Shown here piece by piece: positions 1 through 26,626 of a stretch of DNA of 44,952 nucleotides. Location: positions 1 to 44,952 of the IMG/VR virus record IMGVR_UViG_3300047666_000403. One strand, written 5' to 3'. The notes under the pieces are model-generated. The model worked only from the letters and a program-made list of their open reading frames with translations. It made no database searches and had not been told where the DNA came from. The position numbers and the translations under genes were made by a program. Source of the DNA: a virus. Every line of letters begins with the position of its first letter. The stretch's first letter is position 1.

Positions 1-127
1 CCTCTTGGGATAACAAGTGCAGAATCATTTGGATTGGTAACAGTAGTAGGTGGTGACACATTAATAATACCTGTAGATGAGAGACAAACATGGAATAGAG
101 TAGCTAAGTACTTAAGGACGGTAGGAT
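1..127. repeat. Left copy of 127-bp terminal overlap
   Basis: These bases are identical to the last 127 bases of the window (offset 44,825). The coding frame of the spanning gene is kept across the joint, so the sequence is a closed circle or a circularly permuted molecule. A length of exactly 127 is a common assembler k-mer, so I infer an assembly overlap rather than a packaged direct terminal repeat. Confidence 0.97.
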
Positions 128-7274: not shown

Positions 7275-7889
7275 TTAGATAGGGTCATCATCTGATAAAT
7301 CCATAGGCATCTGTTCTTCAGCTTTAGGTGTTCTGATTTTATCAAAATCAATTCCCTTCTTAGCTACCTTGACAGGCTTACTCACTTCCACTGTAGGATA
7401 CAACTCCGTAAACAACTCTCTCACTTCCTTGTACCACTTAATAGCTGCTGTCACCTGTGTGGTGTCAAGGAGGGCTTCTGCATCAAGGCCTAATACATCA
7501 GCAGCTAGATTCAAACACTGCCCCACTTCAGCAGGATTAACATTACTACTAACGTATGGCTTCTTGTAAGCTGGTGCAGCCTGTTGTTGTGCAGGAGCAC
7601 TAGGAGGAGGAGCAGCTTGAGCACCTTCTGTACTAATAACAGATAGGGTTGTCTTACTAATGTTCTTGAAGTCACCATTCTGCTTGTACATAAACTCCAC
7701 TTCCATCCCATTCTGAAGTGTTTTGTAGTCATCTCCTTCTTTGTAAGAGATTTCAGGCTTCTTAGTGGTTCCCCAACTTACCAAATCTTCTCCAATCTTA
7801 AAGCCGCATCTGTGTAAATTACCATAACGGTCTGGTTCGCTAAGTGATTTGATATAAATATTTTTTACTATTCCGCTAAGTGCTGGCAT
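7275..7889 (-). CDS. Single-stranded DNA-binding protein
   Basis: The 204-residue protein has an N-terminal OB-fold-like region (about 1-90: alternating strands with NIYIKSL, GFKIGEDLVSWGT, MEVEFMYKQNG), a flexible Ala/Pro/Gln linker (90-112), a helical segment, and an acidic tail ending DLSDDDPI. Cellular SSBs end in an acidic tip with DDDIPF that docks partner proteins, and T7 gp2.5 also has an acidic tail. It sits between the polymerase-side genes and the exonuclease. I infer that it coats ssDNA at the fork and contacts polymerase and primase-helicase. Its overall length and linker fit phage SSBs better than a bacterial one. Confidence 0.78.
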   Translation of the reverse strand: MPALSGIVKNIYIKSLSEPDRYGNLHRCGFKIGEDLVSWGTTKKPEISYKEGDDYKTLQNGMEVEFMYKQNGDFKNISKTTLSVISTEGAQAAPPPSAPAQQQAAPAYKKPYVSSNVNPAEVGQCLNLAADVLGLDAEALLDTTQVTAAIKWYKEVRELFTELYPTVEVSKPVKVAKKGIDFDKIRTPKAEEQMPMDLSDDDPI

Positions 7890-8167
7890 TATTCTTCACC
7901 TCCTAAAAATGTAATGTTAAAGTATTTATCTTCGTAGTCTGTTTGTTGCTGTTGTAAATCCTGCATCCCTTGTTCTATCTCCTCGGCTGTTAAATTTGTT
8001 TTCATTGTGTGTATCTGACTCCCTACGCTGTGTGTCACTGTAGTAAACCTCTCATCAAGGAAGAATCCATCCTCCAAGTACTCAATGTTCTGTGGTTTGA
8101 TACTCAATATCTCTTGTGTTGTTGACGGTATTCTAAGAAATGCTGGTGGTCTCTTTAAATTACTCAT
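7889..8167 (-). CDS. Hypothetical protein upstream of SSB
   Basis: The 92-residue protein shares one base of its stop with the SSB start. The N-terminal half is beta-like (RPPAFLRIPSTTQE); a helical Gln-rich stretch follows (EEIEQGMQDLQQQQTDYEDK), and it ends acidic. No family is recognised. Its position between the DUF2493 and SSB genes suggests a replication accessory, by context only. Confidence 0.68.
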   Translation of the reverse strand: MSNLKRPPAFLRIPSTTQEILSIKPQNIEYLEDGFFLDERFTTVTHSVGSQIHTMKTNLTAEEIEQGMQDLQQQQTDYEDKYFNITFLGGEE

Positions 8168-8513
8168 ACCGTACCACCTTCACAATTAAACCCTTATCTA
8201 ATGCAATATCAATCATATGCTTTGTTCCTTTTGATTTACCATCCCAGAAAGCAATCAAGGCTTCAGCGTAGCCTGCCATTTCCACATTGCGTCTATACCC
8301 TGCACTCTTTCCGTACTCATCCCACTTTGCGGGAAACCTTTTAATCTTCACTGCATTGGTTGTTGCCCACTGCTCCCCACATTTGTCTGCCCCATTTGCT
8401 GTTCCACTTACTATGGTGAGCTGTGTTGTAAGGGACAGCATCCACTCATCTAATACCCTTGAAAGTAAGAGCGCATCTGTAAAATACCTACCACCTGCTA
8501 CTATCGTTTTCAT
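8160..8513 (-). CDS. DUF2493 / SLOG-superfamily protein
   Basis: The 117-residue protein begins MKTIVAGGRYFTD and has SGTANGADKCGEQWA followed by KWDEYGKSAGYRRNVEMAGYAE and AFWDGKSKGT. This is the DUF2493 (YpsA/YspA-like) pattern within the SLOG Rossmann-like superfamily. The GG-R-x-F/Y, SG-x-A-x-G-A-D and G-x-x-R-N residues form the expected nucleotide-binding pocket. SLOG proteins bind nucleotide-derived ligands and are linked to NAD/ADP-ribose-type metabolism or defence; the exact phage role is not known. It overlaps both neighbours by 4-8 bases, between the polymerase and SSB genes. Confidence 0.87.
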   Translation of the reverse strand: MKTIVAGGRYFTDALLLSRVLDEWMLSLTTQLTIVSGTANGADKCGEQWATTNAVKIKRFPAKWDEYGKSAGYRRNVEMAGYAEALIAFWDGKSKGTKHMIDIALDKGLIVKVVRYE

Positions 8514-8665
8514 ACTTCCTCCTTTAATTCTGCTTTAAAAGATGCTATTAATTCCCCATCTTTCATAAACTCATAACTCCTATTAAGTGTATTGAGGAAC
8601 ACCTCATCGTAATCAAAAGGGATGAGAAGTTCATTCAGTATATCGTTAAGTCTTGTAACTCTCAT
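8510..8665 (-). CDS. Small protein between polymerase and SLOG gene
   Basis: This 51-codon gene has a near-perfect AGGAGG SD seven bases before its ATG, and ends in an ATGA overlap with the DUF2493 gene. The peptide (MRVTRLNDILNELLIPFDYD..., ending KAELKEEV) is amphipathic and acidic. The clean SD and coupling make it real; the function is unknown. Confidence 0.72.
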   Translation of the reverse strand: MRVTRLNDILNELLIPFDYDEVFLNTLNRSYEFMKDGELIASFKAELKEEV

Positions 8666-8673
8666 ACTTCCTC

Positions 8674-10794
8674 CTAGTGGACTTCTGCCCAGTTTAAACC
8701 AATAGCACCATCACCTGTCTGCTCTATTGATAAGTTAAAATGTTTACCTGCATAGTTTATTGCTCTTTCCATAATACCTTTCACATCCTCTGCTATCTCT
8801 GGCCTACATTCAAACGTAGTTTCGTCATGGTACATACACACTTGCTTGAAGTCAACCCCATCTACATATTTATTTCTAAGTTCTATGTCTTGCAATACTG
8901 TTGCTTTCTGCATTGTTAGAGCCTCATCTGCTTGTAACATGAATACTAATATGTCCTTCTCATTACGTATTAATATCATTCTCCCATCTAAGCCCTTAAT
9001 CTTCCCGTTAAAGAACTCTGTCTTCTCTTGCTTACGTCCCTTCCATGTGTACGACACCTGTCTCCTACGTGCTGTCTTCTTCCACTCAATCTTCAAGTGT
9101 TCTTCCAGCTTAACCTGCGCTTGGAATACTTCATCTAAGGCAAGCCTGAGCTTTGTTCCTAAGTTCTTAGCAGCCGTCTCATTAACAACTCCTGCCATAC
9201 TACCCAACTTCTTATTACCAGCATTGAACTTATAAGCGTAGTTGAAGTTTTTAGCACCGCCTCTTGTAATGAGAGGATAGCCTTCAGCTTCAAACACTTT
9301 GTTAAGCTCATCCCTAGCTCTTGTGTGGCTGTCTGTGCCCTTCTTCTTATCTCCATTTAATATCATGTCCTCGAATACTTTGTCTTCTATACCAGCATCC
9401 CTAGCCCTTGAGATAAGCATTCTATCTTGACAACTAGCAGCATCCGCACTAACTAATATCATTCCTTTCTCAGCTATGAAACAACTACGCATTTGTGTCC
9501 CATAGAAGCTCTCTGTGTTAGGAACATTAGCTATATTAGCATGTCGTACTCTGTATGTGTCAGCAAAGCCACTCACCCTGCTCTCTAAGCGGCCATCGTC
9601 CCTCACCCTATCCAACCACCCCTGTATGTTAGAACGTCTGTGTACGCACTGTACACGCTTACATATGAGCCTCCCCATCTTTCCATCAACACCAATGAAA
9701 CTATCATCAGAGGAAAGCTTAGGAGATGTCCTTACAGGGTTTCCATCCTCATCTACTTCTTTCTTGCTGTAGTTGTATTCTTCTGGTTGCCATCCGAGGT
9801 CAAGCAGAAACTCTTTAACTTCTTTATCCGAGGCCAGATTAACCCTCCGAAAATCCACCCTACAAAAAGGCCCACCCACATTACTGCCAAAATTATCCAA
9901 AGCATTCTTATCTATCCATTTCTGTAGTCTTAAAGCCATTGTCCCTGCTTTAGTGAAGGGAGCTTGTACACCCTCACTCACACCATCTTCCATGCGGTCT
10001 TCTTTGATGGTTGGTATCATAGGAAGTTGTGGATGTAACACGTTATCTATCCTCTCCACCCATGTACTAAGCTGTCTTATGTATCGTTCACATCTAGGAA
10101 TATCAAGCTTCCATCCATGCTTCTCTTGTCTACTAATACAATCCATGAAGTCCATTGTAAGCCATACAGCTCTAGGAGGAAATGCTCCACTCTTAAGCTT
10201 CTCTTGCATACGCAGGTATACTAAGTACGTAATCTCTACATCCTCTACACATCTATGCATCATAGCAGGTGTGTACTGGCTCCAGTCCTCATGCTCCACC
10301 TTACCCCTACCTAACCTATAGCCCCAAGCTGCAAGGCTGTGAGGGCCATCTAGCTTCTTACCTCTGTTACTAAGCTTCTTCACCATTCCATTGTGGTATT
10401 CGATAACTGTATAACCATTACCATCATCTGATATATCTTTTACGTAGTCTTTCCCTATGTACTGCTTCGCATTTTCCTTGTGAGGTATAGCTGCGTAGTC
10501 AAGCTTCATCTGTTCAGGGACAGGCTGGTTCTTATACAACTCCCTAGACAGCAACACTGTGTCTATTACACGTCCCTTGTACTCATAGCCCCATATCTTC
10601 TTCATCAAAGGCTTATCGTATCCAATACCGTTGTGCATAATAAGCACTGTTGCCTTGTCAAGCATAGCCTCTATCTTAGCTTGTGTTCTAAACCTCCACA
10701 CTTGTTTTGTTTCTGTACATTTAAACACAGCACACCATATCTGCGTAGCCTCTTGGTATAAACCATCAGCCTCTAAATCACATACTAATTTCAT
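8674..10794 (-). CDS. Family A DNA polymerase with 3'-5' exonuclease (T7 gp5-like)
   Basis: The 706-residue replicative polymerase has proofreading and polymerase domains. The exonuclease has D6-x-E8 (Exo I), N55...D60 (Exo II) and an Exo III-like HRCVEDVEITY at 180-190. The polymerase has the T motif RVRHANIANVPN (415-426), motif A SADAASCQDR with catalytic D451, motif B R511...K515...Y519 (RGGAKNFNYAYKFNAG) and motif C YHDE (H656, D657, E658). Motif A carries Gln where T7 has Glu480, a variant known in some podophage polymerases. Tyr519 corresponds to T7 Tyr526. The length equals T7 gp5 (704), so a host processivity factor such as thioredoxin may be used, though that loop cannot be confirmed here. 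Confidence 0.97.
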   Translation of the reverse strand: MKLVCDLEADGLYQEATQIWCAVFKCTETKQVWRFRTQAKIEAMLDKATVLIMHNGIGYDKPLMKKIWGYEYKGRVIDTVLLSRELYKNQPVPEQMKLDYAAIPHKENAKQYIGKDYVKDISDDGNGYTVIEYHNGMVKKLSNRGKKLDGPHSLAAWGYRLGRGKVEHEDWSQYTPAMMHRCVEDVEITYLVYLRMQEKLKSGAFPPRAVWLTMDFMDCISRQEKHGWKLDIPRCERYIRQLSTWVERIDNVLHPQLPMIPTIKEDRMEDGVSEGVQAPFTKAGTMALRLQKWIDKNALDNFGSNVGGPFCRVDFRRVNLASDKEVKEFLLDLGWQPEEYNYSKKEVDEDGNPVRTSPKLSSDDSFIGVDGKMGRLICKRVQCVHRRSNIQGWLDRVRDDGRLESRVSGFADTYRVRHANIANVPNTESFYGTQMRSCFIAEKGMILVSADAASCQDRMLISRARDAGIEDKVFEDMILNGDKKKGTDSHTRARDELNKVFEAEGYPLITRGGAKNFNYAYKFNAGNKKLGSMAGVVNETAAKNLGTKLRLALDEVFQAQVKLEEHLKIEWKKTARRRQVSYTWKGRKQEKTEFFNGKIKGLDGRMILIRNEKDILVFMLQADEALTMQKATVLQDIELRNKYVDGVDFKQVCMYHDETTFECRPEIAEDVKGIMERAINYAGKHFNLSIEQTGDGAIGLNWAEVH

Positions 10795-11479: not shown

Positions 11480-11787
11480 CACACAGTCCCCTTCCAACAT
11501 GATATATAATATTTATTAGCAAACTCTCTAATAATATTTTCCCTAAACATCTCTGTAGCGTAAATTGGAATTTCGTATGCAGCAATAATTATATGCATGT
11601 ATGCCCTATACTCCTGCTCCTCTTCTGCCCCTTCACCCACTGATTGAACAGCATGTTCAGCCCCCATCCCTGATTGTCTTGCAGCCATTATTAATGTAGC
11701 TGTCTCTTTAACGTGTAAACATACATCTGGTCTAGCTGCTTGCACGAAGAATGGTATCATTAATGCTGTTAGTATTAGTTTTTTCAT
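11479..11787 (-). CDS. Secreted or periplasmic protein with signal peptide
   Basis: The 102-residue protein begins with a classic Sec signal peptide: MKK, a hydrophobic core LILTALMIPFFV, then cleavage probably after VQA (residue 17). The mature part of about 85 residues is helical with Cys at residues 23 and 97, suited to a disulphide bond in the periplasm. I recall similar short exported proteins in podophages, with a conserved E-T-A-x-L-I-M-x-A-R-Q stretch. The export of a protein made early in infection suggests superinfection exclusion, envelope change or lysis control; this is inference. The gene sits between the sigma-like and coiled-coil genes with 1-4 base overlaps. Confidence 0.77.
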   Translation of the reverse strand: MKKLILTALMIPFFVQAARPDVCLHVKETATLIMAARQSGMGAEHAVQSVGEGAEEEQEYRAYMHIIIAAYEIPIYATEMFRENIIREFANKYYISCWKGTV

Positions 11788-12263
11788 ATCTTACTCCCTC
11801 GTTGAAAGACCGTTCTTTTATTCCGAATATAATCAACACTTAGTCCTAGCATTGCTGCTGTCTCTTTACATGTGTATCCTAATGCAAGCATCTGTTGTGT
11901 CTCTGGTAGTTTATCAAATTCTTGTTCAGCATATATCTGCTCAGTTATGTCCTCCTCAAACAAAGGGAGGAAACCACCAGCATCCTGCATGGAGATGTGT
12001 TGATTGTTAAGCCTCCCTGCTCTACTCACTGTCATTCCATACCCTAGCTCTTGTGTCACTAAGAGGTCTATGTATCTTGATTTAGTACTCCTCTTAGAAT
12101 CATACGCAGGTATGTGCTGCAAGACACGACAAAGAATATCCTGAACTTTGTCTTCGTACTCTGGATACCAATCATCTCGTATCCCTCTCTTCCTTAATAA
12201 GAAATGTATGAGCTTCATGTTGTCTGCCACCCATTCAGGTGTTAAGGGTGATTCATCTTTCAT
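11784..12263 (-). CDS. Sigma-70-like factor (region 2 and region 4)
   Basis: The 159-residue protein has the layout of a minimal sigma factor. Residues about 10-75 look like region 2: a long helical block with VQDILCRVLQHIPAYDS and a basic RSTKSRYIDLLVTQEL segment that would bind core polymerase and the -10 box. Residues about 115-155 look like region 4: LPETQQMLALGYTCKETAAMLGLSVDYIRNKR, a helix-turn-helix for the -35 box. The linker is acidic. No phage RNA polymerase is encoded, so redirecting host polymerase is a reasonable role. It could instead be a distant helix-turn-helix regulator. It overlaps both neighbours by four bases. Confidence 0.72.
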   Translation of the reverse strand: MKDESPLTPEWVADNMKLIHFLLRKRGIRDDWYPEYEDKVQDILCRVLQHIPAYDSKRSTKSRYIDLLVTQELGYGMTVSRAGRLNNQHISMQDAGGFLPLFEEDITEQIYAEQEFDKLPETQQMLALGYTCKETAAMLGLSVDYIRNKRTVFQRGSKI

Positions 12264-12954: not shown

Positions 12955-13155
12955 TCATGCTCCTTTAGGTGTATTTAATTTAAGCTCTCTTGCTGAAGAT
13001 TTAAAATCATCAATAGCATCCATAACTGTGTCCCCAAAGCCACAGGGCATTGTCCTGAAATCAGAATCTTTCAGCATTACACAGTATTGATTACCTTCAA
13101 CACAGACTACACATTTTAAGGTTACACCTGAGTTACCCATTTTAATATCAATCAT
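12955..13155 (-). CDS. Small beta-rich protein
   Basis: The 66-residue protein starts at 13155 (MIDIKMGNSG), seven bases after AGGAG; a closer ATG lies at 13161. Strands VTLKCVVCVEGNQYCVML precede GDTVMDAIDDFKSSAREL, a beta-beta-beta-alpha layout reminiscent of HicB-like folds, but that link is weak. It overlaps the primase-helicase stop. Confidence 0.62.
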   Translation of the reverse strand: MIDIKMGNSGVTLKCVVCVEGNQYCVMLKDSDFRTMPCGFGDTVMDAIDDFKSSARELKLNTPKGA

Positions 13156-14812
13156 CGTCATGCTCCTGTTGTTTAAGTTTACCCTTACTAGGGTGCCACA
13201 CTAATCCAATACTGTCACTAACACCGTACTCTCTCTCTTCTAGTATGTGTAGCACACGTTGAGAGTTGAAATAGTCCTTGTCTTCTCCACTTGTAAGCTT
13301 CCATCCCTGTATACCAATCATCATGTTACAAGCCTGAGCCATAGCACTAGAGCCTTGAAAGTCATCTGTACTAGGTACACGCCCTTCATTCCATTGCTTA
13401 TCCCCTCTAGGTGCTTTGTTGAAGTGACAGAACACATGAGCTGTATACCCGTAGTTGGCTACATCTTCTGCTAATTCCCTTGTCATGCTAATTAAGAAGT
13501 CATTACGCTCTCCACCACTCATACCTACAGTGAAGTTTGTTAAGGGGTCAAGGAATACATCTTTAACACCTTGCGTAAGCACTGCTATACGTATCAACTG
13601 CCTTGTCTCATCCCATCGAGGAGTCTGCCACTTATCAAAGATGATGCACTTACCACCTATCAATGCTTGAGCCTTGTCCACATCATCAGGATTGATAACT
13701 ATCTCAGGGTCGTGGAACACTTTCCCTACAATACTACCTGATATACGTCTTAATGTATTCTTAGCCTGCTCTTCTGGCTTGATAAGCAGGACAGGCAGTT
13801 GATGTTCAAGCATTATCCATGATGCAAGTTCATTAACAATAGTACTCTTACCCATCTTAGGAGGAGCGCCCCAGTATATAACCTCACCTCTCCTCATTCC
13901 TCTTGTGAGCTTTGTAAGCTTAGGCCAAGGATAGGACAGGCCATACTCAGGAGGCTTCTTTAGCTCATCATACATATCCTTATCAGGGATAATCAAGCCT
14001 TGTGTAAGAGGTACACCAGCATTGTAACAACTGCTTACCAATTCAGCTTCCTTCCCCATCAACACCATGTCATTACTATCTTTCTCAGAGTACTTAGCTA
14101 TCTTCACTGTATAATCTTCTGGAAAGAGAGCGATAATATCCTTAACAGCCGTTGCTCCTGCGTCCCCATCATAATCAGGACAGAATACAACTTGCTTCCA
14201 CTTGTCTGTTATGTCCTTTAAGACAGGCTGTAAAGTTTTAATTACACTACTAGCCCCTTGACCAAGAGAAATAACAGCTACCTTCTGCTTCTTATGCCGC
14301 ATCCATGCTGTGTACAGAGCCATAGCATCCTCTTCACCCTCTGTCACATACAAAGCATACCCACCTACTTCAAGGGCTTCCTTCCACCCGAATGGGTCAG
14401 CACTACGCACACTCCCCATCGTGTAAAACTTCTTTGGGTCATGAATTCGTACTTTATATCCAGTGGTATCATGTTTAATTCTACGTGGGTAGTACGTCTC
14501 TGTTAATGTCTTCCCATCCCTTGTGCTTAATCCATGCTTAACACCAAACCTCCTGTATACGCCCCTGAGAAGCCCTCTCGCGGGATGGTCGAACACCCCT
14601 AGGCCATCCACCCAAGAAATGTCTTTAGGCTCTTGTGGGGTGTACTCAACGTCACTATCAGGCAATGATGAGAGAGCTTGTGTGTTGTAGTATGTTTTAC
14701 ATGTAGGTTGGAAACAATATCCCGTACGTACACCATCTTCTTCAAACACTTGTAAGCTGTTCTCATCCCCACATGTAGGACAAGCTATGCGAGCTACGCA
14801 ACTGCCACTCAT
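13148..14812 (-). CDS. Primase-helicase (T7 gp4-like)
   Basis: The 554-residue bifunctional replication protein has three parts. A zinc-binding domain carries C11-x2-C14 and C33-x4-C38. A TOPRIM primase domain carries Glu158 and Glu160 in VTEGEED and D213-Y-D215-G-D217 in FCPDYDGDAG. A DnaB/RecA-type helicase has a Walker A G315-APPKM-GKST324 and a Walker B around VFLDP (D422), then a distal HVFCHFNKAPRGDKQW and DDFQGSSAMAQ with a sensor Gln. It unwinds the fork and lays RNA primers. Its length matches T7 gp4A (566). It begins after AAAGGAATCAAA and is the first large gene of the replication cluster. Confidence 0.96.
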   Translation of the reverse strand: MSGSCVARIACPTCGDENSLQVFEEDGVRTGYCFQPTCKTYYNTQALSSLPDSDVEYTPQEPKDISWVDGLGVFDHPARGLLRGVYRRFGVKHGLSTRDGKTLTETYYPRRIKHDTTGYKVRIHDPKKFYTMGSVRSADPFGWKEALEVGGYALYVTEGEEDAMALYTAWMRHKKQKVAVISLGQGASSVIKTLQPVLKDITDKWKQVVFCPDYDGDAGATAVKDIIALFPEDYTVKIAKYSEKDSNDMVLMGKEAELVSSCYNAGVPLTQGLIIPDKDMYDELKKPPEYGLSYPWPKLTKLTRGMRRGEVIYWGAPPKMGKSTIVNELASWIMLEHQLPVLLIKPEEQAKNTLRRISGSIVGKVFHDPEIVINPDDVDKAQALIGGKCIIFDKWQTPRWDETRQLIRIAVLTQGVKDVFLDPLTNFTVGMSGGERNDFLISMTRELAEDVANYGYTAHVFCHFNKAPRGDKQWNEGRVPSTDDFQGSSAMAQACNMMIGIQGWKLTSGEDKDYFNSQRVLHILEEREYGVSDSIGLVWHPSKGKLKQQEHDDD

Positions 14813-15015
14813 TTTGATTCCTTTGGTGGTGGGGGTAGGGGTATCCAGTGCGTAACATCCTCTACAAAATAATAATCACATGTGTACTCCGTCTCAAATG
14901 TCTTACAACCAGCAAGCCAGATGCCTTTATCCGTCTTTGGCCTGTTAAGAAGCCTAAATAATACTAGCTCTGCATCATCTGGCAATCTATCATCAACACT
15001 AATCCAGTCATTCAT
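14809..15015 (-). CDS. DUF551-domain protein
   Basis: The 68-residue protein starts at 15015 (MNDWISVDDRLP), seven bases after GAGGAAG. WISVDDRLPDD...YYFVEDVTHWIPLPPPP is the DUF551 signature: a W-I-S-V start and an H-W-x-P-L-P-P-P-P end. DUF551 proteins are short and common in phages and prophages, and their function is not known. Its 3' end overlaps the primase-helicase start by four bases. Confidence 0.88.
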   Translation of the reverse strand: MNDWISVDDRLPDDAELVLFRLLNRPKTDKGIWLAGCKTFETEYTCDYYFVEDVTHWIPLPPPPKESK

Positions 15016-15109
15016 CATCGTCTTCCTCTTGTTCTTCTTCGCCTTCAAAATGAGGGCTACGTGGGTCAGTGGTATCACCATAATAATTTATGTTATCTGG
15101 ATAGTTCAT
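15008..15109 (-). CDS. Tiny acidic protein with DPRSP motif
   Basis: This 33-codon gene starts inside the end of its upstream neighbour and its stop overlaps the DUF551 start. The peptide has NYYGDTTDPRSPHFEG followed by EEEQEEDDDE. D-P-R-S-P with an acidic tail recurs in tiny phage proteins as I recall. The function is unknown. Confidence 0.6.
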   Translation of the reverse strand: MNYPDNINYYGDTTDPRSPHFEGEEEQEEDDDE

Positions 15110-15293
15110 TCTGTATCTTCTCCCAGTTGTCTAAGAATCTATCTTTGTCTGGATGATATACATTACCTACATGCACATCCCCTCTCATTAATAAGAGTAC
15201 AGCACCATTAACAACAACACCATCAAAAAATACAAAGTTACTAACATTAACTACGTATTGATACGAATACGCTCCAAGTTTAGATATTTGCAT
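15093..15293 (-). CDS. Hypothetical beta-rich protein
   Basis: The 66-residue protein is read from 15293 (MQISKLGAYS), nine or ten bases after GGGGAG. Two further in-frame ATGs (15344, 15329) have weaker SDs. The body is strongly hydrophobic beta (VNVSNFVFFDGVVVNGAVLLL) and ends with a charged helix. Just upstream a 14-codon ORF (15293..15337) links this start to the previous stop. The function is unknown. Confidence 0.55.
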   Translation of the reverse strand: MQISKLGAYSYQYVVNVSNFVFFDGVVVNGAVLLLMRGDVHVGNVYHPDKDRFLDNWEKIQNELSR

Positions 15294-15333
15294 TACAATT
15301 CTCTCCCCTTTGTTAATCCCTTGATACATATTT

Positions 15334-15591
15334 TCATAGCCCATTAAGCCAATTAAGCCCTTCTTCGTATACCTTGTCGTATACATTTAGCTCCCAATCA
15401 ACAGCATCGACTTTTATTTCGAACTGCCGCTGGTTTATTAAGTCTAATATATTCGCTACACCATTTTCCACATGCAAAACCTCACAAAGCCCTTCATCCA
15501 CTCGACCCACAACTCTATCCCAATAGAAGTATTCCCTGTTAGATTTTGGGTTTTTTGTAAAATTAGATGGTACACACAATCTTTTAGTCAT
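15334..15591 (-). CDS. Hypothetical protein
   Basis: The 85-residue protein starts at 15591 (MTKRLCVPSN) in a TAATG overlap, with AAGGGG upstream. It is beta-rich with YFYWDRVVGRVDEGLCEVL and an acidic end. A longer frame up to 15696 is the antisense-type continuation of the overlapping 178-residue gene and lacks an SD. No family is recognised. Confidence 0.65.
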   Translation of the reverse strand: MTKRLCVPSNFTKNPKSNREYFYWDRVVGRVDEGLCEVLHVENGVANILDLINQRQFEIKVDAVDWELNVYDKVYEEGLNWLNGL

Positions 15592-16127
15592 TACAGCGCC
15601 CCTTGTAGCTTTGTTATCTGCTCTTGTAGTGCCTTTGCCTGAGCCTGTAGCACTTCCATTTCTTTCTGTGCCTCTGTCTGCTCTGTTCGTTCCCATATTA
15701 GGGTGAGGTGTTGACCCTCTAATTGATATACGAGAGGGGTTAATGGGTTGGAAGTGTAAACAGCTACAACATCCATCCTCCCAATAGCTTTAGACTTTAA
15801 ATCATCAGAAAAATCATCCATTGTAGCCCACCCCACCCCATTAAATACTCCATTAATCAAAACTCTATAGCTTTCATCTCTGTACTTAACAAACACAGTA
15901 TTAGATTGTGCTAACTTGATTAAATCTGATTTAGTAAATTGCATTGTCTTTCCTTTTTTAATTAATGTTAAGTCTTTAAAATCTACCCATGCGTTATAGT
16001 AATCCCATGATATTTTGTATGTGCCATTACCGCCAAAGCGTATATCAATGCAAACACCTCCCGCACCTTTATTAATACCCACACTGGATTCAACAGTATC
16101 CCCTATCTCTATCTCTAATGAATTCAT
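15591..16127 (-). CDS. Two-domain hypothetical protein with C-terminal coiled coil
   Basis: The 178-residue protein has an N-terminal SH3/KOW-like beta region (IGDTVESSVGINKGAGGVCI, then GTYKISWDYYNAWV). A second domain starts near residue 62 and a Gln-rich coiled coil covers about 150-178 (QAQAKALQEQITKLQG). Met62 (base 15944) is preceded by AAAAAAGGAAAGACA, so the second domain may also be translated on its own. It is linked to the preceding gene by an ATGA overlap. A nucleic-acid or ribosome-binding role is conceivable from the KOW-like start but not shown. Confidence 0.65.
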   Translation of the reverse strand: MNSLEIEIGDTVESSVGINKGAGGVCIDIRFGGNGTYKISWDYYNAWVDFKDLTLIKKGKTMQFTKSDLIKLAQSNTVFVKYRDESYRVLINGVFNGVGWATMDDFSDDLKSKAIGRMDVVAVYTSNPLTPLVYQLEGQHLTLIWERTEQTEAQKEMEVLQAQAKALQEQITKLQGAL

Positions 16128-16465
16128 ACTAACAACCCCTGTGGCTCACTCTCTATAAAATCAGCTATGTGTGCGAATGTGGAATGTGACATATCATTTA
16201 TCTCAGATAATGGGGCCTTGTTATCACTTGTCCCAAGGTTACCCCGCAATCCCACCCAATTCCTTACAACACCGTGGCTAGAGAGGCTACCCCCATTAAA
16301 GAAACCACTTGGTGTTCTCTCTAGCACATTCCCTGTTTCTTTTTCGTACACGTCACACATAACACCAAGACAACAATACCCACCTGTATTCTGTAATGTA
16401 CCCCTAGCTTGCTTGTACTCTCCACTCCTAAGAGCCACTAATACTTTTCTCATATTATCGTTCAT
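16124..16465 (-). CDS. Conserved phage protein with YCCLGVMCD motif
   Basis: The 113-residue protein contains ALRSGEYKQARGTL, then YCCLGVMCDVY, and later LSEINDMSHSTFAHIADFIE. This combination (Y-C-C-L-G-V-x-C-D and L-x-E-L/I-N-D) marks a widespread uncharacterised family in phages and bacteria. The Cys pair may bind metal. It has AGAGAGG before its ATG and no overlapping upstream gene, so it begins a co-translated set. The region upstream holds an inverted repeat that may be its control site. Confidence 0.8.
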   Translation of the reverse strand: MNDNMRKVLVALRSGEYKQARGTLQNTGGYCCLGVMCDVYEKETGNVLERTPSGFFNGGSLSSHGVVRNWVGLRGNLGTSDNKAPLSEINDMSHSTFAHIADFIESEPQGLLV

Positions 16466-16498
16466 TATAAAGCCTCTCTGGTATCATGTACCGATATT

Positions 16499-16513
16499 GA
16501 TACACGTTGTATC
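16499..16513. promoter_or_regulatory. Perfect inverted repeat, possible operator
   Basis: GATACA-CGT-TGTATC is a perfect 6-bp dyad with a 3-base centre, about 35 bases upstream of the start at 16465. A second partial dyad, GGTA-TCATG-TACC, lies at 16480-16492. Paired dyads in this position suggest a repressor or activator site. Confidence 0.4.
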
Positions 16514-16536
16514 TATTTTATTTACTTATACATCTA

Positions 16537-16638
16537 CTACGTAGGTTGCAAAGATTGCACTAAAACCCTATACTGAATAGTATATTCATCTTCTTTAAAA
16601 AGAAGTCTTAATAAATACTTAAACAACATAAACATCAT
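16537..16638 (-). CDS. Possible 33-codon hydrophobic peptide
   Basis: This ORF runs MMFMLFKYLLRLLFKEDEY and then a short polar end. Only a weak AGG precedes the ATG and no overlap links it to a neighbour. It is listed because the gap is otherwise empty and the peptide has a membrane-type start. It may be chance. Confidence 0.25.
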   Translation of the reverse strand: MMFMLFKYLLRLLFKEDEYTIQYRVLVQSLQPT

Positions 16639-16734
16639 AACCTATATAAATATCTTTTACTTCTTTTATTAATAACAATATTACTAAAGCAATATTATTA
16701 CCCTTCGGGTATTTAGATTTTAATTCTTTTACTG

Positions 16735-16964
16735 CTACTTAATTATATTATTGTTTAATGTTTCTACCAGTTTATCTAATATGGATTCAAGTCTACTTAA
16801 CCTCTCTCCCATACTATATTGCATCCTACTCGACCTAGCAGCTATTGCCTGATTGTGTAGTCTTTTAATTGCTACTTTATGCAGCCTTTCTTTTTCCCCT
16901 CAATCCAATCTAGGTTATCAAGTCTCTTTAACTCACTATCAATCCAACTTTCTAGCTCACTCAT
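16735..16964 (-). CDS. Coiled-coil gene read through a -1 frameshift
   Basis: The gene starts at 16964 in an ATGA overlap with its neighbour, and frame 0 stops after 30 codons at 16872 (MSELESWIDSELKRLDNLDW...). The frame one base back is open from the GGGGAAAAAG run to 16735 and encodes a matching helical, basic coiled coil (KVAIKRLHNQAIAARSSRMQ, then GERLSRLESILDKLVETL) that has no start of its own. Joining the two gives a 76-residue protein. The run G-GGG-AAA-AAG is a plausible slippery site; an indel in the assembly or a true mutation are the alternatives. The function is unknown. Confidence 0.5.
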
Positions 16965-17110
16965 TCTTCTATACTTCTATCTATCCAAATATGGAATGTA
17001 GGATAAGCATTAAAGAGGTGTTCTTCATGCTCTCTTGCATCATCCTCATCCACATGTTCTCCCATCACTGATACATTCCCTTTACTGTCTCTTGCTACGA
17101 CGTAGTACAT
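16961..17110 (-). CDS. Small hypothetical protein
   Basis: The 49-residue protein starts at 17110 (MYYVVARDSKGN), with AGGAG eight bases upstream. It has a short beta hairpin and then an acidic helical part (DEDDAREHEEHLFNAYPTFHIW). It overlaps its neighbours by 4-16 bases. The function is unknown. Confidence 0.62.
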   Translation of the reverse strand: MYYVVARDSKGNVSVMGEHVDEDDAREHEEHLFNAYPTFHIWIDRSIEE

Positions 17111-17382
17111 GTTGTCTCTCCTGTGGCTATGTATAGAGCCTGTGCGCGGGTTAGTAAAGTTCGTACCCCACTCCCCCACCAGTAGTCTGCCATGCCGTCC
17201 AAGACACCCATATATGTTTCATTTGAGTCACATGTTATATCAACTGTAAAATACCTACTATTCCTCAAACTATCCTCAACTAATGCCTTCTCATAATCAC
17301 ATTCAAGACTATCAAGCATGACATACATACCATCTTCCCATTGCAAGTATTTAGTTGATTCAATATATTGTTCAATGCTCAT
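17095..17382 (-). CDS. Hypothetical protein
   Basis: The 95-residue acidic protein is coupled by a 4-base overlap to the upstream gene. It begins with a helix (MSIEQYIESTKYLQW) followed by strands (RYFTVDITCDSNE) and a Trp pair (DYWWGSG). No family is recognised. Confidence 0.65.
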   Translation of the reverse strand: MSIEQYIESTKYLQWEDGMYVMLDSLECDYEKALVEDSLRNSRYFTVDITCDSNETYMGVLDGMADYWWGSGVRTLLTRAQALYIATGETTCTTS

Positions 17383-17690
17383 ACAGCCTCCTTCAATTCA
17401 TTCATTACATATTCTAAGCAGTGTTTAGCTAAGGATAATCTAAGCTTCCCGTATTTAGTACGTCTGTCATGTTTATCTTCGTTGCGGTTATATGTAAAAG
17501 AATCGCCTTCAATCGGGAAAAAATAGTCCCCTGAGCAAGAAGGCCAAGATTCAAACATAGTACCCCAATCCACCTCAAGGTCAAAGAGGAGAACATTCGC
17601 ACACAAACCCCAGTCTTTCCTTTTACACTCACCTGTTTTAATATAATCCTCAAGCATTCCTGCCTGTTTTAGTAGTTGATGTGCATTCAT
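17379..17690 (-). CDS. Hypothetical protein
   Basis: The 103-residue protein has an N-terminal helix (HQLLKQAGMLEDYI) and an aromatic beta region (SGDYFFPIEGDSFTYN). A basic helical end (GKLRLSLAKHCLEYVMNEL) follows. A pattern of F-P-I-E-G followed by Y-G-x-x-R-x-x-L is seen in uncharacterised phage proteins. The start is joined by ATGA to a membrane gene. Confidence 0.66.
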   Translation of the reverse strand: MNAHQLLKQAGMLEDYIKTGECKRKDWGLCANVLLFDLEVDWGTMFESWPSCSGDYFFPIEGDSFTYNRNEDKHDRRTKYGKLRLSLAKHCLEYVMNELKEAV

Positions 17691-17848
17691 CGTTCATCCC
17701 TCAGTGCTAGGCTACATACAGCAAGCAATACAGAAGTGAGGATAATATACACAAACCACCCTATAGAGAATTGTTCAAAGATTGTGTCAGCTATATCAGT
17801 GTTTAAAAAGCTGGCTATAACTATAAATAGTATTTGTTTAGTGTTCAT
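17687..17848 (-). CDS. Small two-helix membrane protein
   Basis: This 53-codon gene has ATGA overlaps at both ends. The peptide has two hydrophobic stretches, about residues 5-15 and 31-49 (WFVYIILTSVLLAVCSLAL), with an acidic loop between and a charged end (RDER). It probably sits in the inner membrane. The function is unknown. Confidence 0.68.
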   Translation of the reverse strand: MNTKQILFIVIASFLNTDIADTIFEQFSIGWFVYIILTSVLLAVCSLALRDER

Positions 17849-18099
17849 CGTTCTAGCTCCTGTATTGTAGCTTCAAGCTGTTTAATTGTCTCACGTAGTT
17901 GATTGGTAGTCTTTGCTTTAATAGGTGTTACACGACCCCAATAGCAAACTCTTTCTGCCCCATCCATGAGCCTTGTAAAGAATGCGAATTTACGCCCCTC
18001 ATCTCGGTATAAAACAACAATCCCTTGTTCCACATGTTCAAACTCATCCCCTATCTTATAATCTGTACTCCAACTACCATCTGCTAATTCATAACTCAT
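17845..18099 (-). CDS. Small protein, beta domain plus coiled coil
   Basis: The 84-residue protein begins with a beta-rich part (YKIGDEFEHVEQGIVVLYRDEGRKF) and ends with a coiled coil (NQLRETIKQLEATIQELER). AAAGGATAAGACA precedes the ATG. It is the first gene after the conserved promoter-like element at 18159-18187, so it is probably the first of a transcript. The function is unknown. Confidence 0.66.
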   Translation of the reverse strand: MSYELADGSWSTDYKIGDEFEHVEQGIVVLYRDEGRKFAFFTRLMDGAERVCYWGRVTPIKAKTTNQLRETIKQLEATIQELER

Positions 18100-18122
18100 T
18101 GTCTTATCCTTTAATGTTTGTT

Positions 18123-18153
18123 AAACGCTCTGTATGCAACACACAGGCGTTTT
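18123..18153 (-). promoter_or_regulatory. Long leader hairpin
   Basis: Read on the minus strand, AAACGC-CTGTGTG-TTG-CATACAG-A-GCGTTT folds into a stem of 6 plus 7 pairs (one G-U) with one bulged A and a 3-base loop. It lies just after the predicted promoter and before the start at 18099, in the 5' leader. It may stabilise the mRNA, attenuate transcription or be a processing site. The tail TTTAACA is weak for a terminator. Confidence 0.5.
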
Positions 18154-18158
18154 AATGT

Positions 18159-18187
18159 AATGATGCTACCAATGCCCTAGTATTATA
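18159..18187 (-). promoter_or_regulatory. -10 box plus conserved ATTGGTAGCATCATT element (copy 1)
   Basis: On the minus strand TATAAT (18187-18182) is followed 8 bases later by ATTGGTAGCATCATT (18173-18159). The same 15-mer follows a TATACT box at 19369-19343. No consensus -35 sits at the usual distance. It would start a transcript into 18099 and below. Conservation downstream of the -10 points to an operator, initial-transcribed element or sigma-specific site. Confidence 0.6.
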
Positions 18188-18257
18188 TCCCACACTCTTC
18201 CAGATGCTGTACAAGCTCATCCAATGTGTAATACTCACCATGATGTAGAAAACTCAT
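18183..18257 (-). CDS. Tiny 24-codon protein
   Basis: The peptide MSFLHHGEYYTLDELVQHLE... has a strong GGGAGGGG before its ATG and begins one base after the previous stop. An upstream extension to 18365 is the wrong frame of the 57-codon gene. It is a short amphipathic helix; the gene end overlaps the -10 box of the next transcript. Confidence 0.5.
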   Translation of the reverse strand: MSFLHHGEYYTLDELVQHLEECGI

Positions 18258-18258
18258 G

Positions 18259-18432
18259 TTATCCCCTCCCTTTGTTCTTGGCTTTCTTTGAATCACGCTT
18301 TTGTTGAGCATGTGACGGTGAGTGCTTAGATAATCCCGCATATTGGAACTTTGTGTACCCTCCACTCAATCCCCCGTGAAAATCACTTACTGACCCCGCG
18401 AGGGCTGTTACTAATACTTTTTTCATATTCAT
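18259..18432 (-). CDS. Small basic protein
   Basis: This 57-codon gene starts in an ATGA overlap with GGGG seven bases upstream. The C-terminal half is basic (AGLSKHSPSHAQQKRDSKKAKNKG) and resembles small phage proteins ending in a K-H-x-P-S-x-x-Q-Q-K-R-D-S-x-K motif. It may bind nucleic acid. The function is unknown. Confidence 0.6.
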   Translation of the reverse strand: MNMKKVLVTALAGSVSDFHGGLSGGYTKFQYAGLSKHSPSHAQQKRDSKKAKNKGRG

Positions 18433-18599
18433 ACTGCTGCCCCTATGTAGTCTCTAACTGCTCGTTTATGTCTGAATAACACACCATTTGTACTGTTATT
18501 CTCTTTTAGTATGTACTCTGTACCCTTGTTCATGTGACGTATAACGATAATCATGCTACCAGTCACACGCAATACACGTTCATTGATTAGTTTAGTCAT
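18429..18599 (-). CDS. Small hypothetical protein
   Basis: This 56-codon gene starts inside the 3' end of its upstream neighbour (8-base overlap) and ends in an ATGA overlap. The peptide is beta-rich (RVLRVTGSMIIVIRHM) followed by a polar helix (LFRHKRAVRDYIG). The function is unknown. Confidence 0.62.
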   Translation of the reverse strand: MTKLINERVLRVTGSMIIVIRHMNKGTEYILKENNSTNGVLFRHKRAVRDYIGAAV

Positions 18600-18936
18600 T
18601 ACATAGCTCCTCTAGTTCTTCTAGTGTATCAATGCCAGCCATTAGCTCTTCACCTTGAATATACACATACATGTTTACAACAGAAATGGCGTTGTCTAGC
18701 TTTGTATTCACTTCTCCGAAGTTGTCTTGTTCGTACTCAACTATTGTATCAATTGCCTCGAATGCACTTACATCGTGCTTGATAAGCCACTGTTCGCAGT
18801 TGTAATAGCCAATTAGATAATAGTCTTCATTGAAGGAGTGAAAGTGCCATTCATCCTGATTATCAGGTGTTAATACACCATCTTCGATGCGGCTAAGGAT
18901 GTGTGCTTTTAGTTCTGTTTTGATTGAATTGTTCAT
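18592..18936 (-). CDS. Conserved hypothetical phage protein
   Basis: The 114-residue acidic protein contains FNEDYYLIGYYNCEQWL followed by FEAIDTIVEYEQDNFGE. This N-E-D-Y-Y-x-I-G-Y-Y-x-x-E-x-W-L pattern occurs in uncharacterised proteins of many phages. GGAGTAACAAC precedes the ATG. It is soluble with no catalytic motif; the function is unknown. Confidence 0.75.
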   Translation of the reverse strand: MNNSIKTELKAHILSRIEDGVLTPDNQDEWHFHSFNEDYYLIGYYNCEQWLIKHDVSAFEAIDTIVEYEQDNFGEVNTKLDNAISVVNMYVYIQGEELMAGIDTLEELEELCND

Positions 18937-18940
18937 GTTG

Positions 18941-19318
18941 TTACTCCGCTATGTAATATGTAAGTGTGAGAGGGTTGAATGTATAGGCATCTTTAGCCTT
19001 CGCATGAGCTTCGCTAACACCTTTGAATAAGCCTAAACTAACCATGTTGTCCATACTATAGATTAATGTAGCAAGGCGCTGATTGTCTAGGTACAGGATG
19101 GATTCTTGATTGTACTCTTTAGCAAAGGCTAAGATACTGAATAGGTTTCCATCTACTTCAAGTATATAACTACGTTCAACCTCTCCTTTGTAACAGCCAT
19201 CAAGTGCTGGCCTCTCGTAATCATACCCTAAGAATTTACTTATAGCATTGTGTTCAGCCTCCACACTGTCTAAGTTAAGAGCTAAGATTACTAGTGATGT
19301 CAATGTATTGTCTCGCAT
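18941..19318 (-). CDS. Hypothetical protein, first gene after promoter-like element
   Basis: The 125-residue protein starts after AAAGGTAACACT. It is helical at the start (LTSLVILALNLDSVEAEHNA), with beta strands in the middle. It follows copy 2 of the conserved promoter-like element, so it is probably the first gene of its own transcript. No family is recognised. Confidence 0.68.
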   Translation of the reverse strand: MRDNTLTSLVILALNLDSVEAEHNAISKFLGYDYERPALDGCYKGEVERSYILEVDGNLFSILAFAKEYNQESILYLDNQRLATLIYSMDNMVSLGLFKGVSEAHAKAKDAYTFNPLTLTYYIAE

Positions 19319-19342
19319 AGTGTTACCTTTTGTTGTTAATTA

Positions 19343-19369
19343 AATGATGCTACCAATCGACATAGTATA
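19343..19369 (-). promoter_or_regulatory. -10 box plus conserved ATTGGTAGCATCATT element (copy 2)
   Basis: On the minus strand TATACT (19369-19364) is followed 6 bases later by ATTGGTAGCATCATT (19357-19343), then TTAATTAA and the SD of the gene starting at 19318. Copy 1 is at 18159-18187. No good -35 is found, so a phage or activator-dependent promoter is possible. Confidence 0.6.
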
Positions 19370-19383
19370 AGAATATATATTAA

Positions 19384-19578
19384 TTACTTACGGCCAGTGT
19401 GGTATACACGATATTGTGATACATGCTGACTAACATATTCAAAGTCTTTTGTATCTACTTGATACCAAAATTCTCTCCCATTCTCCCCCTTTATAATACC
19501 GTTAAAATCCTCATTAATTAAAGGGTCATTTTTAGATTCTTTTAATGCTTTAATGTAGACACTTTCTGTTATTCTCAT
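19384..19578 (-). CDS. Small hypothetical protein
   Basis: The 64-residue protein begins MRITESVYIKALKESKND and has a beta-rich second half (REFWYQVDTKDFEYVSQHV). It follows the WAGY gene by one base. No family is recognised. Confidence 0.62.
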   Translation of the reverse strand: MRITESVYIKALKESKNDPLINEDFNGIIKGENGREFWYQVDTKDFEYVSQHVSQYRVYHTGRK

Positions 19579-19579
19579 A

Positions 19580-19747
19580 TTAATATCCTGCCCATTGTTG
19601 AAGCTTTATAAAACTGTTGAATACCAGTACATTACCTTCAAGCATGTCATCTTTTACAAATGCTCTTAGCCTGCCTGTCAATTTAGAAGGGATAGCTTCA
19701 ATAAACCAATCATGCTTACTTGCCCATTCTATTTGTTGTTTAGTCAT
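19580..19747 (-). CDS. Small conserved phage protein ending WAGY
   Basis: This 55-codon gene has AGGAATAAG upstream. The peptide starts MTKQQIEWASKHDWF and ends FNSFIKLQQWAGY. The pattern W-x-x-x-H-D-W near the start and a final F-x-x-L-x-x-W-A-G-Y recurs in small proteins of T7-like phages as I recall. The function is unknown, but the match to a known phage pattern supports it as real. Confidence 0.75.
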   Translation of the reverse strand: MTKQQIEWASKHDWFIEAIPSKLTGRLRAFVKDDMLEGNVLVFNSFIKLQQWAGY

Positions 19748-19771
19748 TATCTTATTCCTGTTAGTTAGCTA

Positions 19772-19954
19772 TTACATCCACATCACATTTGCATAACTTG
19801 AATTAGTGTACGCGAGACCCGTATTATAGCGCATTGCTCTCACTTTGATATAAGATAAAACCCTCCCCGCTTGCTCTTCCTTATCCGTGCCGTCATAATC
19901 CCAAATCTTATTACGCATTCTTCTTAAAAGTTTATCGCTGGTCAATTTGCTCAT
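19772..19954 (-). CDS. Small basic protein
   Basis: The 60-residue protein has a basic helical start (MSKLTSDKLLRRMRNKIWDY) and an aromatic end (LAYTNSSYANVMWM). AAGAGAATAAC precedes the ATG. It is among the first genes of the minus operon, so an early host-interaction role is plausible. No family is recognised. Confidence 0.6.
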   Translation of the reverse strand: MSKLTSDKLLRRMRNKIWDYDGTDKEEQAGRVLSYIKVRAMRYNTGLAYTNSSYANVMWM

Positions 19955-20048
19955 GTTATTCTCTTAGTTAGTTAGTTTAATGATAGACACTAGCTGTTAA
20001 CTAATGCCTACGGTTAAACTCACTGGTATTTAGTGCCAGTTCGTTTCG

Positions 20049-20234
20049 TTACCAAGTTGTTAAAGAACATGTCGTTATCTCTTCGACACCAATAAGACTA
20101 CAGCATACAATTATTAATGCAACTATAAATATCAATATAAATACAATTAAATGATAAGGCATTGAAACATAACGAATTATATATGCAAATAAACATACAA
20201 CTAATACATACCCAATAAGGTATATACAATGCAC
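20049..20234 (-). CDS. Possible two-helix membrane protein, first early gene
   Basis: The ORF encodes 61 residues with two hydrophobic helices (IYLIGYVLVVCLFAYII and LIVFILIFIVALIIVCCSLI). The only early start is GTG at 20234, with AAAGGA too close (two bases), so the start is uncertain; an internal Met at residue 25 has no SD. It may be the first gene of the operon or a leader-region chance ORF. Confidence 0.4.
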   Translation of the reverse strand: MHCIYLIGYVLVVCLFAYIIRYVSMPYHLIVFILIFIVALIIVCCSLIGVEEITTCSLTTW

Positions 20235-24696: not shown

Positions 24697-25022
24697 GTAT
24701 TGAAGCTGGAGGATTAGACCTTCTGTTAAAATACGTATGGATTCCAACTATAGGTTTATTAGGTTGGTTTGTTAAAGGATATTTAAACAGACTCGATAAT
24801 AGACAATTATCTTTTGCAGATAAACTAGCAACACTAGAATTAAAGCTTAATAAAGAGTACTACGATAAGTTAGAGATACAGCAACAGATTGTACTCCCTT
24901 TACAAAAGAGTATCTCAGAAACAAGACAAGATTTTAAAGCTATTAGTGAACTTCTTGTTGAAATGCATGGTGACATGAAAGTATTGAAATCTAAGATACT
25001 AGGAGAGGTAGATAGTAAATGA
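24693..25022 (+). CDS. Membrane coiled-coil protein, possible spanin or holin-like
   Basis: The 109-residue protein has one hydrophobic helix (about 9-29: LLKYVWIPTIGLLGWFVKG) and then a long charged coiled coil (DKLATLELKLNKEYYDKLEIQ...). Both ends overlap the terminase genes by four bases. In T7-like phages a small membrane gene (gp17.5 or gp18.5 Rz-type) lies beside the terminase genes, so a lysis role such as i-spanin or class II holin is plausible. No lipobox partner was found nearby, so this is inference from place and topology. Confidence 0.62.
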   Translation: MSIEAGGLDLLLKYVWIPTIGLLGWFVKGYLNRLDNRQLSFADKLATLELKLNKEYYDKLEIQQQIVLPLQKSISETRQDFKAISELLVEMHGDMKVLKSKILGEVDSK

Positions 25023-26626
25023 GTATTGAGGGAATAAGACAAGAGTGTGAGGATAGCTTATACACCTACGCACAAATGATGTTCCCTAATAGGTACTTTG
25101 GTGATGTTCACAGAGATATGTTTATGTTTTTTGAGGATTCACTTAGAAAGGGTTTAGAAGGGGGAGAAGGTGATAACTCCGCAGCTCTAATACCCCGTGA
25201 CCACCAGAAAAGCTTTTGTATTGCTGTAGCGTGTAGCTGGGCTATTACTAAGTTTCCTTGGTTTACTGTTACATATGTTTCTTCTAACCCTAAATTGTCA
25301 CAAAGACAGCTAAGTGTTATTAAGAATATATTTAAGAGTAGAAACCATAGAGACTTATGGCCTGAAATGCTTAACTATGAAGTACATCAAAAGACTAAGC
25401 AGTTTGAGCACAAGCCAACAGGGACATGGACACTGGACGAAATAGCAGTTGACCACCCTAAGAGACCAGATAGTGAGAAAGACCCCACAATAGCCGCTAC
25501 AAGCGCAAAGAGTACTAACACAGGGGCACACTACAAGGTTTGTATATTTGATGACTTAGTTACTAACGAAAACTACCGAAGTGCAGCAGAAAGAGAGGAC
25601 ATTAAAGAGGTTTATCAGTCTTATGCTTCTATCGCTACAACAGGTAGTATTAAATGGTTAGTAGGTACTAGGTACGGTGATAATGACTTATATTCGGACT
25701 TAAAAGAGAAAGAATATGAAGTATTTGATGATGAAGGTAATTGTGTAGAAACAAAGCCATTATGGACTTGGTTTGAAAGAACAGTCGAAGACAGCAAGAA
25801 CAAAGATGGTAGTGGTCATTTCCTTTGGCCTAGAATGAAGATGGAAGATGGTAGTTGGTATGGCTTTAACAGAACAGAATTAAGTAAGAAGCGTAGTGAA
25901 GCCTTTAACTTAGTATTGTACTACTGCCAATACTACAACGACCCTAATGCTGCTGATGTAGACAAGATTACTAACAACTGCTTTATGTATATGCAGCCTA
26001 AGATGCTAGAACAACGACAAGGTAAGTGGTGGTATGGGAATAAAGAGCTTAAGGTGTTTTGTGGTATGGATTTGGCTTTCAGTGAAGGAAGTGGAGCCAA
26101 GAAAGTTAAAAGAGACTATACAGCTATTGCGGTTGTTGCATGGGATGCAGACGGATACTTGTATATCCTCGATTTGCAACGATTCCAAACAGACAGAGCA
26201 GAAGTATATTACCAAAAAGCTATAGAGCTTCATCAGTATTGGGACTTCAGGGAAATGACTGTAGAAACTAATGCTGGTGGTAATGTAATAGCTAATTTTA
26301 TACAGGACGAAGTACGTAAAGCAGGACAAACATTAGTAGTTAAACATCAAACTAAGAACCAGAGAGAAGGTAGTAAAGAAGAACGTAATGCTCAACTCTT
26401 TGAACCCCTTTATAGAGGGAAAAGTGTTTATCATACTAAGGGTGGGTATACGAGGTTGTTAGAAGAAGAACTAAGACTTAGTAAGCCTCCACATGATGAT
26501 TTAAAAGATGCTTTATGGATAGCCGTTACAAACAGCACACGAATAAAGAAGCCCAAGTTTGCTACTAATAGAAATGTAGTTAAAGCAGAGAGTAGGTTTT
26601 TAAATAGAGGAAGAAAGAGAGCTTAA
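25019..26626 (+). CDS. Terminase large subunit
   Basis: The 535-residue packaging motor starts in an ATGA overlap. The ATPase has a deviant Walker A PRDHQKS (59-65), where Q replaces the last Gly, and a Walker B VCIFDD (D178, D179). Nuclease residues are in the C-terminal half: GMDLAFSEG (D351), VETNAGG (E416) and PPHDDLKDALW near 495-505. Such enzymes pump DNA into proheads and cut concatemers. The gene order TerS-membrane protein-TerL-portal matches a T7-like packaging module, but the gene lies at the start of the late operon rather than at its end as in T7. Confidence 0.95.
   Translation: MSIEGIRQECEDSLYTYAQMMFPNRYFGDVHRDMFMFFEDSLRKGLEGGEGDNSAALIPRDHQKSFCIAVACSWAITKFPWFTVTYVSSNPKLSQRQLSVIKNIFKSRNHRDLWPEMLNYEVHQKTKQFEHKPTGTWTLDEIAVDHPKRPDSEKDPTIAATSAKSTNTGAHYKVCIFDDLVTNENYRSAAEREDIKEVYQSYASIATTGSIKWLVGTRYGDNDLYSDLKEKEYEVFDDEGNCVETKPLWTWFERTVEDSKNKDGSGHFLWPRMKMEDGSWYGFNRTELSKKRSEAFNLVLYYCQYYNDPNAADVDKITNNCFMYMQPKMLEQRQGKWWYGNKELKVFCGMDLAFSEGSGAKKVKRDYTAIAVVAWDADGYLYILDLQRFQTDRAEVYYQKAIELHQYWDFREMTVETNAGGNVIANFIQDEVRKAGQTLVVKHQTKNQREGSKEERNAQLFEPLYRGKSVYHTKGGYTRLLEEELRLSKPPHDDLKDALWIAVTNSTRIKKPKFATNRNVVKAESRFLNRGRKRA

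Follow-up and report, generated by a model that had tools for sequence, protein, structure and literature searches.

A highly diverged, probable ECF-like sigma factor in an uncultivated podovirus at or beside the Zobellviridae

Podovirus phiEco32 has no RNA polymerase of its own, encodes a phage sigma factor instead, and carries its structural genes on the strand opposite to its replication genes (PMC9960094). The holoenzyme containing this sigma factor, gp36, transcribes all late genes and some of the middle ones (PMC9965538), and gp36 promoters carry the motif tAATGTATAtA (PMC4281155). A comparison of phiEco32 with the Zobellviridae is already in print, in the paper describing phage Klyazma (PMC9960094). 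Within that family, an annotated sigma gene lies between the primase/helicase and DNA polymerase genes of RIO-1, CW02, PA11, CVT22, Klyazma, and several oyster metagenome phages, and the record for RIO-1 gp19 remarks that related phages have a clear sigma factor at that position. As far as we could find, the literature holds no mapped promoters for the sigma factors of Zobellviridae phages; the family is a direct place for mapping phage sigma promoters.

Here, we describe a gene at the same position in an uncultivated virus, IMG/VR record IMGVR_UViG_3300047666_000403, analyzed over its full 44,952 nucleotides (hereafter, the window). A first-pass annotation had read its product as a sigma-70-like protein in a T7-like phage lacking an RNA polymerase and had considered this an unusual regulatory plan. 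The sigma-70 family assignment is upheld by PHROG_1740, profile, and fold matches and by orthologs. The plan itself turns out to be ordinary, as the combination of no RNA polymerase and a sigma gene at that position is usual in Zobellviridae.

Genome setting and position of the gene

The features discussed below are collected in Table 1. The genome looks complete based on its 127-nt direct terminal repeat, and the absence of an RNA polymerase gene is therefore meaningful. PF00940 (single-subunit RNA polymerase) was not found in the window genome or in four named Zobellviridae, with T7 as a positive control (E = 9.9e-110), which agrees with the earlier statement that a T7-type enzyme is missing. 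We also considered a 1567-aa ORF as a virion RNA polymerase; this candidate was ruled out by its match to an internal virion protein family.

Table 1. Positions of the features discussed, numbered from the first nucleotide of the window.
Feature	Position	Strand	Basis
Direct terminal repeat, 127 nt, identical to 44826-44952	1..127	.	Terminal sequence identity; complete genome
Family A DNA polymerase, downstream landmark	8674..10794	-	phrog_17, E = 9e-82
Gene for a diverged sigma factor of ECF type (regions 2 and 4), 159 aa	11784..12263	-	PHROG_1740, Sigma70_r2, profile match, Foldseek
Region 4-like helix-turn-helix, residues ~119-153	11805..11907	-	AlphaFold helices; PHROG_1740 alignment reaching residue 148
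Region 2, residues ~13-60, with EDxVQD motif at residues 37-42	12084..12227	-	Sigma70_r2 match; ortholog invariance
DNA primase/helicase, marking the upstream side of the conserved sigma position	13148..14812	-	phrog_239, E = 1.8e-117; 39% identity to Zobellviridae phage
Undescribed structured RNA, four hairpins	20298-20464	+	Covariation, six sequences
Large terminase, structural (presumed late) block	25019..26626	+	phrog_38, E = 5.8e-71

The minus strand encodes the replication genes and the plus strand the structural genes, and the two blocks are read outwards from about 19955-20800. The terminase is 47-48% identical to those of the RIO-1, HP1, and Melvirus records; the nearest matches of the terminase and the primase/helicase place the phage, as far as sequence relationships go, within or beside Zobellviridae. 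RIO-1, CW02, and other members of the family carry an amidotransferase/amidoligase/ATP-grasp (peptide-ligase) cluster ahead of the primase, whereas the window phage does not: the cluster was not found in 14812-20000, where all ORFs are shorter than 190 aa. This cluster is common in Zobellviridae but not necessarily a defining trait.

The sigma gene sits in the minus-strand early/replication block, between the primase/helicase and DNA polymerase genes, a position conserved in about ten relatives. The syntenic Vibrio ORFs of two further relatives (L015 and L016) gave no detectable sigma match, so the position is best described as usual rather than proven universal. Its reading frame runs from 12263 to 11784 over 159 codons. 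The coordinates and length first given for the ORF are thus correct, but the strand is minus; the plus strand of this interval is full of stops.

Domains, predicted fold, and orthologs

The predicted protein combines two regions typical of sigma factors, both recognizable at low similarity. The helical block first likened to region 2 matches Sigma70_r2 over residues 13-60 (E = 1.7e-3), at 18.5 bits against a curated Pfam cut-off of 24 bits. For the proposed region 4-like helix-turn-helix (ETAAMLGLSVDYIRNKR), the evidence consists of weak HTH_28/HTH_23 matches at residues 124-147 and helices in the AlphaFold model; no Pfam Sigma70 region 4 model matches, and the generic helix-turn-helix models do so at E of about 0.1. 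A single match to PHROG_1740, annotated "RNA polymerase sigma factor" in PHROGs, covers both regions (residues 36-148, E = 1.5e-5). The short acidic linker described earlier is present (residues ~76-111), although its acidity is only mild (5 D/E versus 2 K/R). Divergence is strong in regions 2.3-2.4, and region 4 appears short, so that promoter recognition by this protein may be altered.

AlphaFold predicts two helical domains, at residues of about 9-75 and 112-153, with pLDDT of about 70-90 (mean of the whole model, 69.6), joined by an unordered, low-confidence linker; the C-terminal helices span residues 121-127, 132-139, and 143-157. The model thus shows a two-domain region 2 and region 4 fold. 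Of the 50 PDB matches listed by Foldseek, almost every one is a sigma factor or a sigma-containing complex, with ECF sigmas among the first, but the matches are weak in absolute terms: the best E-value is 0.029, TM scores are 0.3-0.4, and none listed reaches 0.001. These weak values are explained in part by the uncertain domain arrangement in the model. Structure matches in a viral library include many phage sigma factors, those of CW02 and RIO-1 among them.

A tblastn search of the protein against 50,697 phage records returned only chance matches to tail genes, and relatives were therefore reached through the DNA polymerase and synteny. Two uncultivated relatives, L018 and L021, encode orthologs at 49-50% identity. 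Both genes lie upstream of DNA polymerase, and in L018 the primase/helicase is visible as well. The orthologs match PHROG_1740 (L018, E = 7.9e-8; L021, E = 3.4e-6) and Sigma70_r2 (L018, E = 2.1e-4, 21.4 bits; L021, E = 0.01), and residues E37, D38, V40, and Q41 of region 2 are invariant across the orthologs of the window protein. As the two orthologs share the gene position and both matches, the ORF and its sigma similarity are more than chance.

Profile comparison, a check suggested in the first-pass annotation along with AlphaFold modeling, points the same way as the fold matches. A three-sequence profile (window, L018, and L021) matches sigma-H (3mzy; E = 2.4e-5) across both regions. It likewise matches, over both regions, six syntenic sigma factors of named Zobellviridae (E = 2e-6, probability 89.5%), whose own six-sequence profile matches the ECF sigma SigW at E = 7.4e-16. 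Iterative growth of the profile drew in same-position ORFs of other contigs; beyond L018 and L021, these were used for structure alignment only and not as proof.

Several relatives depart from a single, intact sigma gene. Two different sigma-like ORFs stand next to each other upstream of DNA polymerase in L022 (1858-2319 and 2761-3234) and L032 (4965-5327 and 5527-5946). Both ORFs of L022 match Sigma70_r2 below threshold; in L032, one matches PHROG_1740 (E = 2.5e-5) and the other Sigma70_r2 weakly. PQ867850 also contains two PHROG_1740 matches. In Vibrio phage 521E56-1 (L011), the region 2 ORF (7846-8103) and the region 4 ORF (8100-8405) overlap by 4 bases and both match PHROG_1740; either the sigma factor is split there or a frameshift is present. 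Finally, the product name "RNA polymerase sigma factor" in PQ867853 (L008) is attached to a DNA polymerase-sized ORF of 2,028 bases (8260-10287), where the annotation is probably shifted by one gene.

Proposed role, promoter search, and a structured RNA

We propose that the gene product is very likely a compact sigma factor of ECF-like build, that it belongs, though highly diverged, to the PHROG_1740 family, and that it would redirect the host core polymerase to middle and late promoters. There is good support for a sigma factor taking the place of an RNA polymerase in this phage. The protein would be made in the early-to-middle phase, together with the replication genes, from transcripts initiated by host sigma70, and region 2 may serve as its contact with the host core RNA polymerase. 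By analogy with phiEco32, the bound polymerase would then be directed to middle and late promoters of the phage, most of all to those in the structural block on the plus strand, and it is in this sense that the sigma factor may steer late genes.

Alternatively, the protein could be a true sigma factor for middle and replication genes, with the late structural block read by the host sigma70 holoenzyme. The gene does lie in the replication block, and the promoters used by phiEco32 gp36 include middle ones in addition to late ones (PMC9965538, PMC4281155); nevertheless, gp36 serves all late genes, and we regard this division of labor as unlikely. Sigma70-like sites do not occur in the plus-strand block more often than in shuffled sequence, a result that speaks against it without deciding the matter.

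A still less likely reading is that of a regulator of sigma descent, which has lost the ability to initiate transcription itself and still binds core, host sigma, or DNA as a blocker, anti-sigma, or activator. The strong divergence of regions 2.3-2.4 and region 4 is consistent with such a protein, as is the outcome of our promoter search, in which a repeated late-promoter motif was looked for in the window and none was found. Against it, the orthologs keep both domains and the EDxVQ motif of region 2.2, well-formed sigmas such as PA11 gp12 occur among the syntenic relatives, and PHROG_1740 includes an active sigma factor, phiEco32 gp36. Finally, an unrelated small helix-turn-helix DNA-binding protein with N-terminal helices that resemble region 2 by chance would fit the weak generic helix-turn-helix matches and poor absolute Foldseek E-values, but it is highly improbable given that three diverged orthologs each have a single PHROG_1740 match over both regions, that the listed fold matches are nearly all sigma factors, two-domain ECF sigmas included, and that the gene occupies the conserved sigma position.

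If the protein is an ECF-like sigma factor, as we favor, a further and more tentative suggestion concerns its promoters. With its short region 4 and diverged regions 2.3-2.4, it might be a minimal sigma with its own promoter class. The clade of uncultivated podoviruses using it would include members (L022 and L032) whose two different sigma-like genes, lying side by side, may each serve a separate expression phase; we consider this whole reading doubtful.

The search for promoter elements also led to the region between the two gene blocks. An invariant TAACTATATACA at 20343-20354 was rejected as a promoter element on account of the covariation of both flanking hairpins, which favors a structured RNA in which this conserved segment stays mostly single-stranded. 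Likewise, GTGTATATGCATA at 20468 was set aside as a repeated promoter motif, as its recurrence in the window does not clearly exceed chance.

The structured RNA was aligned from six sequences: the window (plus strand), L018 5140-5306 (minus strand), L043 1242-1409, L044 20-186, L045 5391-5560, and L042 148-317 (minus strand). Among its four hairpins, one has a GAUA loop, one an invariant CUUG loop, and one is terminator-like; an invariant unpaired segment, ACTATATACA, separates the second and third. Compensatory changes on both sides affect 17 of the 32 pairs across the six sequences, a count that neither shuffled controls nor slid copies of the structure approach. G-U pairs, for example at columns 25-42 and 78-93, point to the plus strand as the RNA strand. 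The RNA has no Rfam match and, among the records searched, was found only in this clade; it may deserve more attention than the sigma gene. Conserved blocks also lie on its 3' side (window 20465-20504 and 20519-20620, plus strand). First comes GGGTGTATATGCATAGCACTCTACAAATTTCTACAAAAA, shared with distant relatives, followed by a conserved block that includes a small hairpin with covariation (GGTCTAAAGACC / TGACTGAAGTCA).

Comparison with known systems

The window protein shares the layout of bacterial ECF (group IV) sigmas, such as SigW, SigK, CnrH, and E. coli sigma-E, in having region 2, a linker, and region 4, and it matches them in fold. Unlike these proteins, it has a shorter region 4 that Pfam region 4 models do not match. 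No anti-sigma partner was recognized for it.

The phage and its sigma gene resemble phiEco32 in the lack of an RNA polymerase, in the division of replication and structural genes between the two strands (PMC9960094), and in PHROG_1740, to which gp36 belongs at E = 1.9e-45. The two sigma factors differ in length (214 aa for gp36, 159 aa here) and in gene position, as gp36 is encoded away from the primase/helicase gene, whereas the window gene stands between the primase/helicase and DNA polymerase genes. A direct comparison of the window protein with gp36 alone is not significant (E = 0.13), and no homolog of gp79, the gp36 partner and sigma70 inhibitor, was found within the window.

The closest counterparts are the sigma factors of Zobellviridae, namely Salinivibrio CW02 gp21, Pseudomonas PA11 gp12 (a well-formed sigma; Sigma70_r2, E = 4.1e-14), Citrobacter CVT22 gp45, Klebsiella Klyazma orf044, and Pseudoalteromonas RIO-1 gp19. 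These are alike in size (mostly 159-221 aa), in gene position, in PHROG_1740 membership for most, and in belonging to phages without an RNA polymerase, but the window protein is only about 11-18% identical to them. Its departures are a weak region 2, a short region 4, and no sequence-level match in named phages. Overall, the window protein is a new, very diverged member of an already known phage sigma family. It extends the family of phiEco32 gp36 by a branch that sequence searches of named phages missed, and it supports the redirection of host polymerase by a phage sigma factor as the common transcription plan of T7-related podoviruses that lack an RNA polymerase.
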